This document shows positions 57,888 to 64,000 of a stretch of DNA of 64,000 nucleotides, in pieces. The position numbers and the translations under genes are program-made. The notes under the pieces are model-generated. The model searched no databases and was not told the DNA's origin. It saw nothing but the letters and a program-made list of their open reading frames with translations. The DNA is from Burkholderia sp. BCC0322. Lineage in GTDB: Bacteria; Pseudomonadota; Gammaproteobacteria; Burkholderiales; Burkholderiaceae. Location: contig NZ_CADFDU010000013.1 of NCBI RefSeq assembly GCF_902833045.1, positions 124,001 through 188,000 of the forward strand. Direction: 5' to 3'. Positions within the stretch are counted from its first letter, which is position 1, and each line of letters starts with the position of its first letter.

Positions 57888-61660
<3,773 letters not shown>

Positions 61661-61671
61661 GGCTGTAGGTT

Positions 61672-61731
61672 GTCAGAGATAGTGAAAAACGTGTCACTGA
61701 GATGAAAAAAAATTCTCAGAGATCGTGAAAA
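61672..61731 (+). repeat. Three imperfect ~17-bp repeats, spaced ~21 bp
   Basis: Copies: GTCAGAGATAGTGAAAA (61672), GTCACTGAGATGAAAAA (61693), CTCAGAGATCGTGAAAA (61715). The first and third agree at 15 of 17 positions; the second matches with one shift. They resemble tandem transposase-binding sites. Confidence 0.7.
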
Positions 61732-61746
61732 TTTGGCCATTTTTGT

Positions 61747-61754
61747 AGCCCGGT
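61747..61754 (+). repeat. Target-site duplication, left copy (IS256 element)
   Basis: AGCCCGGT, identical to 63129-63136. An 8-bp duplication is standard for IS256-family insertion. Confidence 0.85.
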
Positions 61755-61779
61755 GAACCTGTCCGCATTTTTGTGGGCG
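61755..61779 (+). repeat. IS256 left terminal inverted repeat
   Basis: 25 bases ending in TTTTTGTGGGCG; pairs with the right repeat at 63104-63128 with six mismatches. Confidence 0.85.
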
Positions 61780-61797
61780 AAGCGGTTGAACAAGGTG

Positions 61798-63078
61798 TTA
61801 TCCGCGCGCCTGCATAAAACGCTCACCGAACAGGATAGCAAACTGGTTCATCGCTGATTTCCAGTCGAAGGTCGCGCGCACGTTCTTGGCCAGCACGTTG
61901 CGCAGCGCGAGCCAGAGCAGCTTGATGGCAGCCTCGTCATTCGGGAAGTGACCGCGGGTCTTGATGATCTTGCGCAACTGCATGTTTAGACTTTCTATGG
62001 CGTTCGTCGTGTACACAACCCGTCGAATCTCCGGCGGAAACACGAAGAACGGTATGACGTGCTCCCAGGCGCGCTGCCACGATTGCACGATGGTCGGGTA
62101 TTTCTCGCCCCAGGGGCCGTCAGCGAAGTCTTGCAGCGCCTGTCTTGCCGCGTCTTCGCTGACGGCCGCGTAGATCGGGCGCAGTGCCTGCGCAACGGCC
62201 TTGCGGTCCTTCCAGCCGGCATATTCGAGGCTGTTGCGGATCAGATGCACGATGCAGGTCTGGACGGTCGTCCTGGGATAGGCCGCGCCGATCGCCTCGG
62301 TCAGCCCCTTCAGGCCATCGACCACGGCGATCAGGATGTCCTGACAGCCGCGCGTCTTGAGCTCGTTGAACACCTTGAGCCAGAACTTGGCGCCCTCGGT
62401 CTGCTCGATCCATAGTCCCAGCACGTCGCGCTGGCCGTCAGCCTGGATACCCAGCGCGAGATACACCGCCTTGTTGCTGACCACGCCGTCGTCGCGGATC
62501 TTGACCCGCAACGCGTCGAAGAACACGACCGGATACATCGCCTCGAGCGGGCGGTTCTGCCAGGTCAGCGCGTCGGCCATCACCTCGTCGGTGACCGAGC
62601 TGATGAAATCGGGCGAGACCTCGGTGCCGTAGTGCTCGGCCAGAAACGCCTGAATCTCGCGCACGCTCATGCCGCGCGCGTACATCGCGATGATGCGCTC
62701 GTCAAAGCCGGTGAAGCGGCGTTCGTGCTTGGGGATCAGGATCGGCTCGAAGCTGCCGTCGCGGTCGCGGGGCACTTCGACCCGGACCGGGCCTCGATCG
62801 GTGATGACTGTCTTGCCGCTGGCGCCGTTACGCTCGTTGGCTTGCCCGGCCGGCTTGGGCTGGCCCGGCGAGTAGCCCAGATGCAGATTCATCTCGGCGC
62901 CCATCGCGCGTTCGATGAGCGCCTTGTTGAACGCCAGCATCAAGTCCTGCACCTCGGCGGGCGACATCGGCCCCTTGACCAACTGGTCCAGCAATTCCTT
63001 GGGCAGTTCAGGCAGCGGCCCGCGGGCCGCTGCCTGTGAGGCTACCGTTCGTCTTTTCTGCTTCATCGGCATATCCAT
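61798..63078 (-). CDS. IS256-family (mutator-type) transposase
   Basis: 426 residues from the ATG at 63078, supported by an AGAGG site eight bases upstream. It is a full-length DDE transposase: PVVFFDALRVKIRDDG (first D), DILIAVVDGLKGLTEAIGAAYP (second D), CIVHLIRNS, and the late Glu in VYTTNAIESLNMQLRK. The frame is uninterrupted. It catalyses transposition of the element it lies in. Codon usage is near that of the host, suggesting long residence in high-GC genomes. Confidence 0.96.
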   Translation of the reverse strand: MDMPMKQKRRTVASQAAARGPLPELPKELLDQLVKGPMSPAEVQDLMLAFNKALIERAMGAEMNLHLGYSPGQPKPAGQANERNGASGKTVITDRGPVRVEVPRDRDGSFEPILIPKHERRFTGFDERIIAMYARGMSVREIQAFLAEHYGTEVSPDFISSVTDEVMADALTWQNRPLEAMYPVVFFDALRVKIRDDGVVSNKAVYLALGIQADGQRDVLGLWIEQTEGAKFWLKVFNELKTRGCQDILIAVVDGLKGLTEAIGAAYPRTTVQTCIVHLIRNSLEYAGWKDRKAVAQALRPIYAAVSEDAARQALQDFADGPWGEKYPTIVQSWQRAWEHVIPFFVFPPEIRRVVYTTNAIESLNMQLRKIIKTRGHFPNDEAAIKLLWLALRNVLAKNVRATFDWKSAMNQFAILFGERFMQARG

Positions 63079-63103
63079 GATTTTTACCTCTTATGATATG
63101 CCC

Positions 63104-63128
63104 CGCCCACGAAATCACGGATAGGTCC
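63104..63128 (-). repeat. IS256 right terminal inverted repeat
   Basis: The partner of 61755-61779. The transposase promoter probably overlaps it. Confidence 0.85.
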
Positions 63129-63136
63129 AGCCCGGT
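63129..63136 (+). repeat. Target-site duplication, right copy
   Basis: AGCCCGGT, identical to 61747-61754. Confidence 0.85.
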
Positions 63137-63167
63137 CGACTACCCATGTCTTCCGGGCTATTTTATT
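63129..63167 (+). terminator. Hairpin reconstituted at the IS right junction
   Basis: AGCCCGG (63129-63135) pairs with CCGGGCT (63153-63159), followed by ATTTTATTC. The first arm is the duplicated target, so the hairpin existed before the IS insertion. Confidence 0.55.
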
Positions 63168-63195
63168 CTACGGCGCCCCCGAGCTGGCAACGTTA

Positions 63196-63213
63196 ATGCA
63201 ATAAATATTGCAT
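63196..63213. promoter_or_regulatory. Palindrome upstream of the TnsA-like gene
   Basis: ATGCAATA-AA-TATTGCAT: 8-bp perfect arms, then ATTGCAC. It is AT-rich and a likely operator of the transposition operon. The rest of the gap to 63613 is AT-rich without a gene; a small hairpin AGGGC-TTAATAC-GCCCT lies at 63573-63589, 25 bases before the start. Confidence 0.5.
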
Positions 63214-63613
63214 ATTGCACTAGTGAAAATAATCAGCGCACCAATAATCTCAAGGCATTGCATATATCACCCAGCAAGAGCAATTCTCGGCACAAAAATA
63301 CTGCAATAATCATTGACCGCGCGCCGACAATCAATAAAATAACGTCTTCGCTGGAAAAAGATGCTAATTTTAAGCAGGACTGTGCTTGCCGATTGATTTT
63401 GCAGTGATCCAAAAACTGGAGGACAGAATGTAAAAACGGAGCAAACCCCCTATTGGAAGCTTGCCCCGCTGGTGGGAGCTGGCGCTACCCGATCTGGACA
63501 ATCGAAGTATCGTCAATCCCCCGCCTGCGGTCAAGTTTTTGCGCCCAATTTTTTCTGATCTCGCAAGTCGAGAGGGCTTAATACGCCCTTTTAATTTGCG
63601 ATCGGAGCGAATC

Positions 63614-64000
63614 ATGCAAAACAAACCGCATGCCGCTATCAGTTCGATGGCTAGGCAGGGGATTCATCATACTCCTGCACGACACGTGGTACGGCCGACC
63701 GGTGGGAATTTCCGTGGCTGGTTCCCTTCCTTAAAGTCAGGCAGATCAGTGGCGTTCGAGTCATTGATTGAGCGTGACGCTTTGCTTCTCTTCGAGTTCT
63801 CTCGCGGCATCGTCAGCTATCGAGAGCAACCTTACTCGATCTATTACTCGTTCAACGGTCGGTCGCGGAGATACACCCCGGACTTTGAACTCACTCTCGC
63901 CAGCGGCGCAGTGCTACTCATTGAGGTCAAACCAGAAGAACGAGCGCGCGCACCAGACGAAGACAAACGGCTTCGCCGAATCACCGACCATTTCGCTGAG
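63614..64000 (+). CDS. TnsA-like heteromeric transposase endonuclease (partial)
   Basis: The frame runs from the ATG at 63614 (GGAG six bases upstream) to the window edge, 129 residues seen. The restriction-endonuclease fold of TnsA is recognisable: FESLIERDALLLFEFSRGIV (acidic residue E49 or E53), SYREQPYSIYYSFNGRSRRY, TPDF (D90), and LLIEVKPEE (E104-X-K106). This is the PD-(D/E)XK triad. TnsA cuts the 5' ends of the transposon together with TnsB, giving cut-and-paste movement. The C-terminal TnsC-binding part is beyond the window. Codon use is less GC-biased than the host. Confidence 0.85.
   Translation, partial: MQNKPHAAISSMARQGIHHTPARHVVRPTGGNFRGWFPSLKSGRSVAFESLIERDALLLFEFSRGIVSYREQPYSIYYSFNGRSRRYTPDFELTLASGAVLLIEVKPEERARAPDEDKRLRRITDHFAE

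Follow-up and report, generated by a model that had tools for sequence, protein, structure and literature searches.

A Tn7-like element very likely inserted directly downstream of gyrB in Burkholderia, and its relatives at the same site

Features of the gyrB locus

Examination of the window (the whole stretch of DNA analysed, 64 kb from Burkholderia sp. BCC0322) showed an intact gyrB gene, followed by a repeat-bearing transposon end, an insertion sequence (IS) and the start of a tnsA-like gene. The features are as follows.

59186..61660, + strand: intact gyrB, with the presumed attachment site at its 3' end
61659..61663, no strand: presumed copy of the 5-bp target duplication, GAGGC, its position fixed by relatives that show both copies
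61664..61746, no strand: Tn7-like right end, comprising the TGT tip and three repeats that resemble TnsB sites
61747..61754, no strand: left copy of the IS target duplication, AGCCCGGT, formerly in the 5' arm of the right-end terminator hairpin
61755..63128, − strand: IS256-family insertion sequence, 1374 bp, with imperfect inverted ends
61798..63078, − strand: IS transposase, 426 aa, Mutator family
63129..63159, + strand: terminator-like hairpin AGCCCGG...CCGGGCT with a T-rich run, the intact copy beyond the IS, beginning with the right copy of the IS duplication
63614..64000, + strand: start of a tnsA-like endonuclease gene (first 129 codons), cut by the window end

GyrB has a normal C-terminus, and its stop codon (TGA) lies at 61658-61660. 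The tip of the element, TGTAGG, begins at 61664, 3 nt past the stop, a position set from relatives in which both ends and the duplications were located; the far copy of GAGGC would lie beyond the window. Inside the tip are three TnsB-site-like boxes of the form TCA...TGAAAA, at 61673, 61694 and 61716. A search of both strands of the window with the pattern [CT]CA-n5..8-TGAAAA gave 5 occurrences in total, and the only cluster of three within 70 nt was the right end. The initial annotation had placed the TGT tip at 61671, 11 bp after the stop; the tip and repeats are real, but the TGT at 61671 belongs to the first inner repeat.

In Tn7 the right end faces the target gene, the ends are TGT/ACA, and a 5-bp duplication is formed. 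The window likewise contains a TGT right end with multiple repeats, and left ends of the same end family were found in another genome of the genus (G020) and in Caballeronia. In the window and its relatives the right end adjoins the 3' end of an intact gyrB and the tns genes read away from it, bearing out the Tn7/glmS-like geometry that had been proposed. The element is not Tn7 proper, which occupies attTn7 downstream of glmS, because the site here is gyrB.

The right-end repeats and the TnsA-like gene are separated by the IS, which the initial annotation had overlooked. Its transposase matches Pfam Transposase_mut (E 5e-126), its inverted ends are 26 nt long and imperfect (77% complementary), and it is flanked by an 8-bp duplication at 61747-61754 and 63129-63136. 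A Mutator-type transposase, terminal inverted repeats and a duplication within the 8-9-bp norm are those of the IS256 family. It is an ordinary member: genomes of the genus contain several copies at 88-91% identity. Neither tnsA nor any of the three repeats is interrupted by the IS, which is missing from the corresponding place in B. cepacia LK29. We infer that it entered the 5' arm of the right-end terminator later than the transposon end.

The TnsA-like gene, which had been described as reading away from gyrB, does so from 63614 and matches Pfam Tn7_TnsA-like_N (PF08722, E 1.2e-9). Its frame is open over all 129 visible codons, and the product is 84% identical to TnsA of LK29. Window positions 61480-61754 are 92% identical to LK29, and two blocks of the window query (1-275 and 1650-2521) match neighbouring stretches of G013, taken to be the LK29 genome. 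LK29 thus has the same right end and TnsA without the IS. Because the IS separates the two in the window, its right end and tnsA are joined only through LK29. Behind the right end LK29 carries an operon of TnsA, TnsB (rve and Mu-transpos_C), TnsC (TniB/AAA) and a 644-aa TniQ, followed by a small ORF, an Mrr-type protein, a MazG-like protein and the contig end. The tnsB, tnsC and tniQ/tnsD genes expected after TnsA are present in this nearest relative found; in the window, which ends within tnsA, neither they nor a left end are visible.

A 156-aa gene directly follows tniQ in LK29 (L061 7559-8029) and in Caballeronia (L117 7155-7625). It shows a weak likeness, below the cut-off, to a 3'-5' exoribonuclease (Rv2179c-like, E 0.007 and 0.006, respectively), and by its position is possibly a fifth gene of this lineage.

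Recurrence of the gyrB site in relatives

For 9 of the 21 relatives of the window TnsA in the genome_contigs set, the record also includes an upstream gyrB: B. cepacia, Caballeronia, Herminiimonas, an Aquabacterium MAG, Methylobacter, Bordetella, Pollutimonas, Methylomonas and Pandoraea (at 11 kb). The available stretches of the other 12, some of them short, showed no gyrB tail; Chitinimonas has its gyrB on a separate contig.

A TnsB profile search over 399 Burkholderiales genomes (E <= 1e-60) listed 65 matches in 51 genomes, with gyrB positions determined for 42 of the 51 and 60 of the 65 loci examined. Twelve of the 19 closest matches (E <= 1e-158) are encoded on the gyrB strand, 1-23 kb downstream of that gene, all 12 with a TGT tip just past the gyrB stop. 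Six are elsewhere (two at msrB, one of them by neighbourhood only, two after lysS, and two without a gene 3' end at the repeats), and one is on a contig too short to place. Among the 46 weaker matches, the only examined locus downstream of gyrB was G285 (33 kb, with a tip at gyrB); its TnsB and gyrB tip may belong to one element. In a class-wide search, none of three new genomes had its element on the gyrB contig.

Spacing was compared at 24 loci with gyrB upstream of the tns genes on the same strand, the window and G020 being included outside that definition. The first patterned TGT falls 2-11 nt past the gyrB stop in 24/24, and at 3 nt in 14; such a TGT is expected by chance in an estimated ~1 in 10 16-nt stretches. 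Two values are ambiguous: Methylomonas (5 by pattern, 11 by duplication) and G091 (7, or 12 for TGTAGG).

Within the genus, the gyrB tail was found in 65/65 genomes (85-97% identical to the window) and a TniQ match in 17, ten of which have it on the gyrB strand, no more than 30 kb downstream of that gene (G005, G009, G013, G031, G037, G066, G071, G080, G087 and G089). The first 80 nt past the gyrB stop, compared in 61 of the 65, form clusters of 19, 12, 4, 3, 2, 2 and 2 with 17 singletons, so the DNA directly after gyrB varies widely in the genus. These clusters may include transposon ends, though not necessarily every one. A second Burkholderia lineage at gyrB (L065, L066 and L068) has GTAGGGCGCC..GCGACTGGCGCC repeats and two TniQ genes; just inside its end a sequence resembling a tRNA 3' half was seen by eye.

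Left ends were sought in 7 assembled gyrB loci as an ACA accompanied by an exact repeat of the five bases that precede a candidate tip, and candidates were ranked by likeness to the mirrored right end. A left end with an exact 5-bp duplication was obtained for 6 of the 7:

Caballeronia fortuita: 17.3 kb, duplication GAGGG
Herminiimonas: 16.1 kb, duplication GGTAT
Pandoraea captiosa: 18.6 kb, duplication GAGTT
Methylobacter tundripaludum: 23.9 kb, duplication ATACC
Bordetella pseudohinzii: 24.3 kb, duplication GAGCG
Methylomonas fluvii: 39.9 kb, duplication GTCGG

The six accepted left ends score 26-48, and other places matching the pattern 6-10. No left end was found in the 11 kb read for Pollutimonas. 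In Methylomonas the fitting tip is the third candidate, 11 nt past the stop, and the TGTCGG at 5 nt is a remnant of an older element's tip; the younger element sits within the tip of the older one. In tandem or nested arrangements at gyrB (L123-L128, L132-L134 and L062) a further right-end-like sequence starts directly after a left end and its duplication.

In G020 a 13.2-kb element is bounded on either side by the window's end family, with the duplication GAGGT and no tns genes between the two ends, which brings to 7 the gyrB-site elements with both ends and exact 5-bp duplications. The mirrored end and duplication that the initial annotation had proposed looking for are thus found in seven relatives. 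It had also held that the same sequence after gyrB without TnsA would count against a transposon. That sequence does occur in G020, but there as part of an element bounded by two ends and an exact duplication.

Empty sites, a further suggestion of that annotation, were found in kin of Caballeronia and Bordetella, by searching 41 and 31 genomes, hosts included, with queries joining both flanks. The query was unbroken across the junction in Caballeronia kin G541 (1-300 of 300) and G523 (7-299) and in Bordetella kin G494 (1-209). Five further Caballeronia kin (G540, G525, G536, G534 and G542) match across it by at least 50 nt, and in many other genomes the match ends near the gyrB stop.

A hairpin-plus-T test was applied to the 260 nt after the gyrB stop, against shuffled sequences. 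It was positive for 17/23 right ends, compared with 19/920 shuffles (2%), and negative for six. Genus sequences, which include host DNA, gave 45/61, compared with 22/610 shuffles. The right ends of four lysS/msrB loci were also positive, one weakly. In Caballeronia, Herminiimonas and Bordetella (complete, with no second element end following), a hairpin is also present in the flank beyond the left end. The window has no such hairpin in the 260 nt after gyrB, the intact one starting at 63129, past the IS. Tn7 inserts in the glmS terminator region. The right-end hairpin here probably replaces the native gyrB terminator displaced by insertion.

Target selection, cargo and known systems

One long TniQ, in LK29, is the only selector seen in the window's lineage. 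The C-terminal half of the long, TnsD-type TniQ is predicted to be a row of winged-helix-like domains, in a structural model of middling confidence (pLDDT 68, pTM 0.44). On the TniQ tree the gyrB label needs 11 changes, compared with a shuffled mean of 18.1, and 0/500 shuffles were as low. The deep forks are weak (49/60), the gyrB-site proteins do not form a single clade, and the sole TniQ of G080, a gyrB-site locus, groups on the opposite side. A sliding identity comparison of TniQs mapped no target-reading domain. Close TniQ relatives are found after lysS (L147 and L148, tips ~24-28 nt past the stop) and at msrB (L149, and L145 by neighbourhood). Their positions make lysS and msrB apparent further homing sites and suggest target switching, so relatedness alone does not fix the target.

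The suggestion that the cargo could hold defence genes was borne out in three partly scanned elements. The Mrr-type protein of LK29 matches PADLOC PDC-S02 (E 1.5e-180), G020 carries type I restriction genes, and Caballeronia (L117 8366-11851) encodes a protein matching a type IIG restriction enzyme-methyltransferase. A PADLOC scan of 7 cargo proteins of LK29 and Caballeronia gave no cas8/5, cas7 or cas6.

The element resembles Tn7 and its glmS-directed TnsD pathway, in which TnsD recognises the 3'-end coding sequence of glmS (PMC11406308), in having TnsA/B/C with a TniQ-domain selector and inserting beside the 3' end of a conserved gene. It differs in its site, gyrB, and in its TnsB profile, which matches type I-F3 TnsB (E 1.9e-116) much better than Tn7 TnsB (E 1.9e-36). 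Tn7017, described as a CRISPR-associated transposon of type I-F3 whose parE site is targeted by TniQ (PMC11406308), belongs to the branch with the closest TnsB, and parE, a type II topoisomerase B-subunit gene, is a gyrB paralogue; it targets parE rather than gyrB and carries CRISPR-Cas, and the comparison is one of target and TnsB rather than of TniQ. Tn6022, a Tn7-like element with a dedicated chromosomal selector, is described as using TniQ and TnsF at comM (PMC10293859), whereas the window's lineage, judged from LK29, has a single long TniQ.

Several reports touch on the site itself. The Tn7-like transposon B479_00025-B479_00140 of Pseudomonas putida HB3267 is described with no attachment site named (PMC4731212), and from its locus tags could lie directly after gyrB. 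In Helicobacter, a restriction-modification gene pair is integrated within 10 bp after gyrB (PMC4615327), which likewise places foreign defence genes directly after this gene, although no transposon is described there. A Tn7-like island off attTn7 is reported for Cupriavidus metallidurans (PMC3384475). In PMC12452197, PMC9298801 and PMC7031236 gyrB figures as a phylogenetic marker, and it is not mentioned in the main text of PMC10293859, PMC8649781 or PMC11406308. Among the matches listed, no title or abstract opening names gyrB as a Tn7-family site, though a mention may exist elsewhere. The homing site thus appears to be new and previously undescribed, in an element that is very likely Tn7-like and of no new class.

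Interpretation and alternatives

The right end, the TnsA-like gene and the relatives support the proposal of a Tn7-like transposon directly downstream of gyrB. In the relatives we see an operon of TnsA/TnsB/TnsC/TniQ that points away from gyrB, repeat-bearing ends of the TGT...ACA form, 5-bp duplications and empty sites. With high confidence, we interpret the window as holding the right end, and the beginning of tnsA, of a Tn7-like transposon whose protein-guided homing takes it to a point just downstream of gyrB. The long TniQ would bind the conserved 3' coding sequence of gyrB and recruit TnsC, and TnsA/TnsB would paste the element between the gyrB stop codon and the native terminator. Termination of gyrB transcription would be preserved by a substitute terminator that the right end supplies.

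The window copy itself may have decayed, keeping its right end and tnsA start after loss of the other transposition genes. G020, which retains both ends and the duplication without tns genes, provides a precedent, and an IS already lies inside the window's right end. That IS spares tnsA and the three repeats, however, and the tnsA frame is open throughout its visible codons and close to LK29; we regard decay as rather unlikely. An origin of the repeats in the IS256 element or in the host gyrB terminator region would fit the IS directly adjoining them, but is contradicted by LK29, G020 and Caballeronia, where the repeats occur without that IS, and by other Burkholderia genomes, where the match to the window ends at or a few bases from the gyrB stop. 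We give this origin practically no weight.

The pattern at gyrB could also reflect survivorship rather than TniQ homing, if insertion were wide and only harmless copies after stop codons persisted. Related elements after lysS and msrB, and two loci (G248 and G175) without a gene 3' end beside the right-end repeats, are in keeping with this. Survivorship is nevertheless very improbable, given that elements of different genera lie at the same gene, in one orientation and at close spacing, that elements are stacked in tandem at one point, and that within a single genus the gyrB stop is directly followed by several distinct sequence families.

Homing to gyrB is thus the preferred reading. Because relatives occupy the same spot in many other bacteria, gyrB looks like a widely used landing site, and its use as a homing site by several lineages is well supported by position. 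A broader reading, whose chances we consider even, is that a whole Tn7-like branch near I-F3, spread over Burkholderiales and Methylococcales, has the gyrB 3' end as its main homing site, which is probably also its ancestral one. TniQ would read gyrB by a row of MerR/excisionase-like winged helices and would have switched target at least twice (lysS and msrB), the right-end terminator would take over the end of gyrB transcription, close to dnaA/dnaN, and several lineages would stack in tandem.

If homing to gyrB is right, the homing sites listed for the Tn7 family gain an essential, widely conserved gene, and nature provides related TniQs with different targets (gyrB, lysS and msrB), which makes DNA reading by TniQ/TnsD directly testable. 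A gyrB-directed integrase would serve as a safe-site tool. The right-end terminator suggests how elements insert harmlessly between a gene and its terminator. The finding would also offer a reason for the variable DNA after gyrB in Burkholderia, and mark a place to seek defence cargo.
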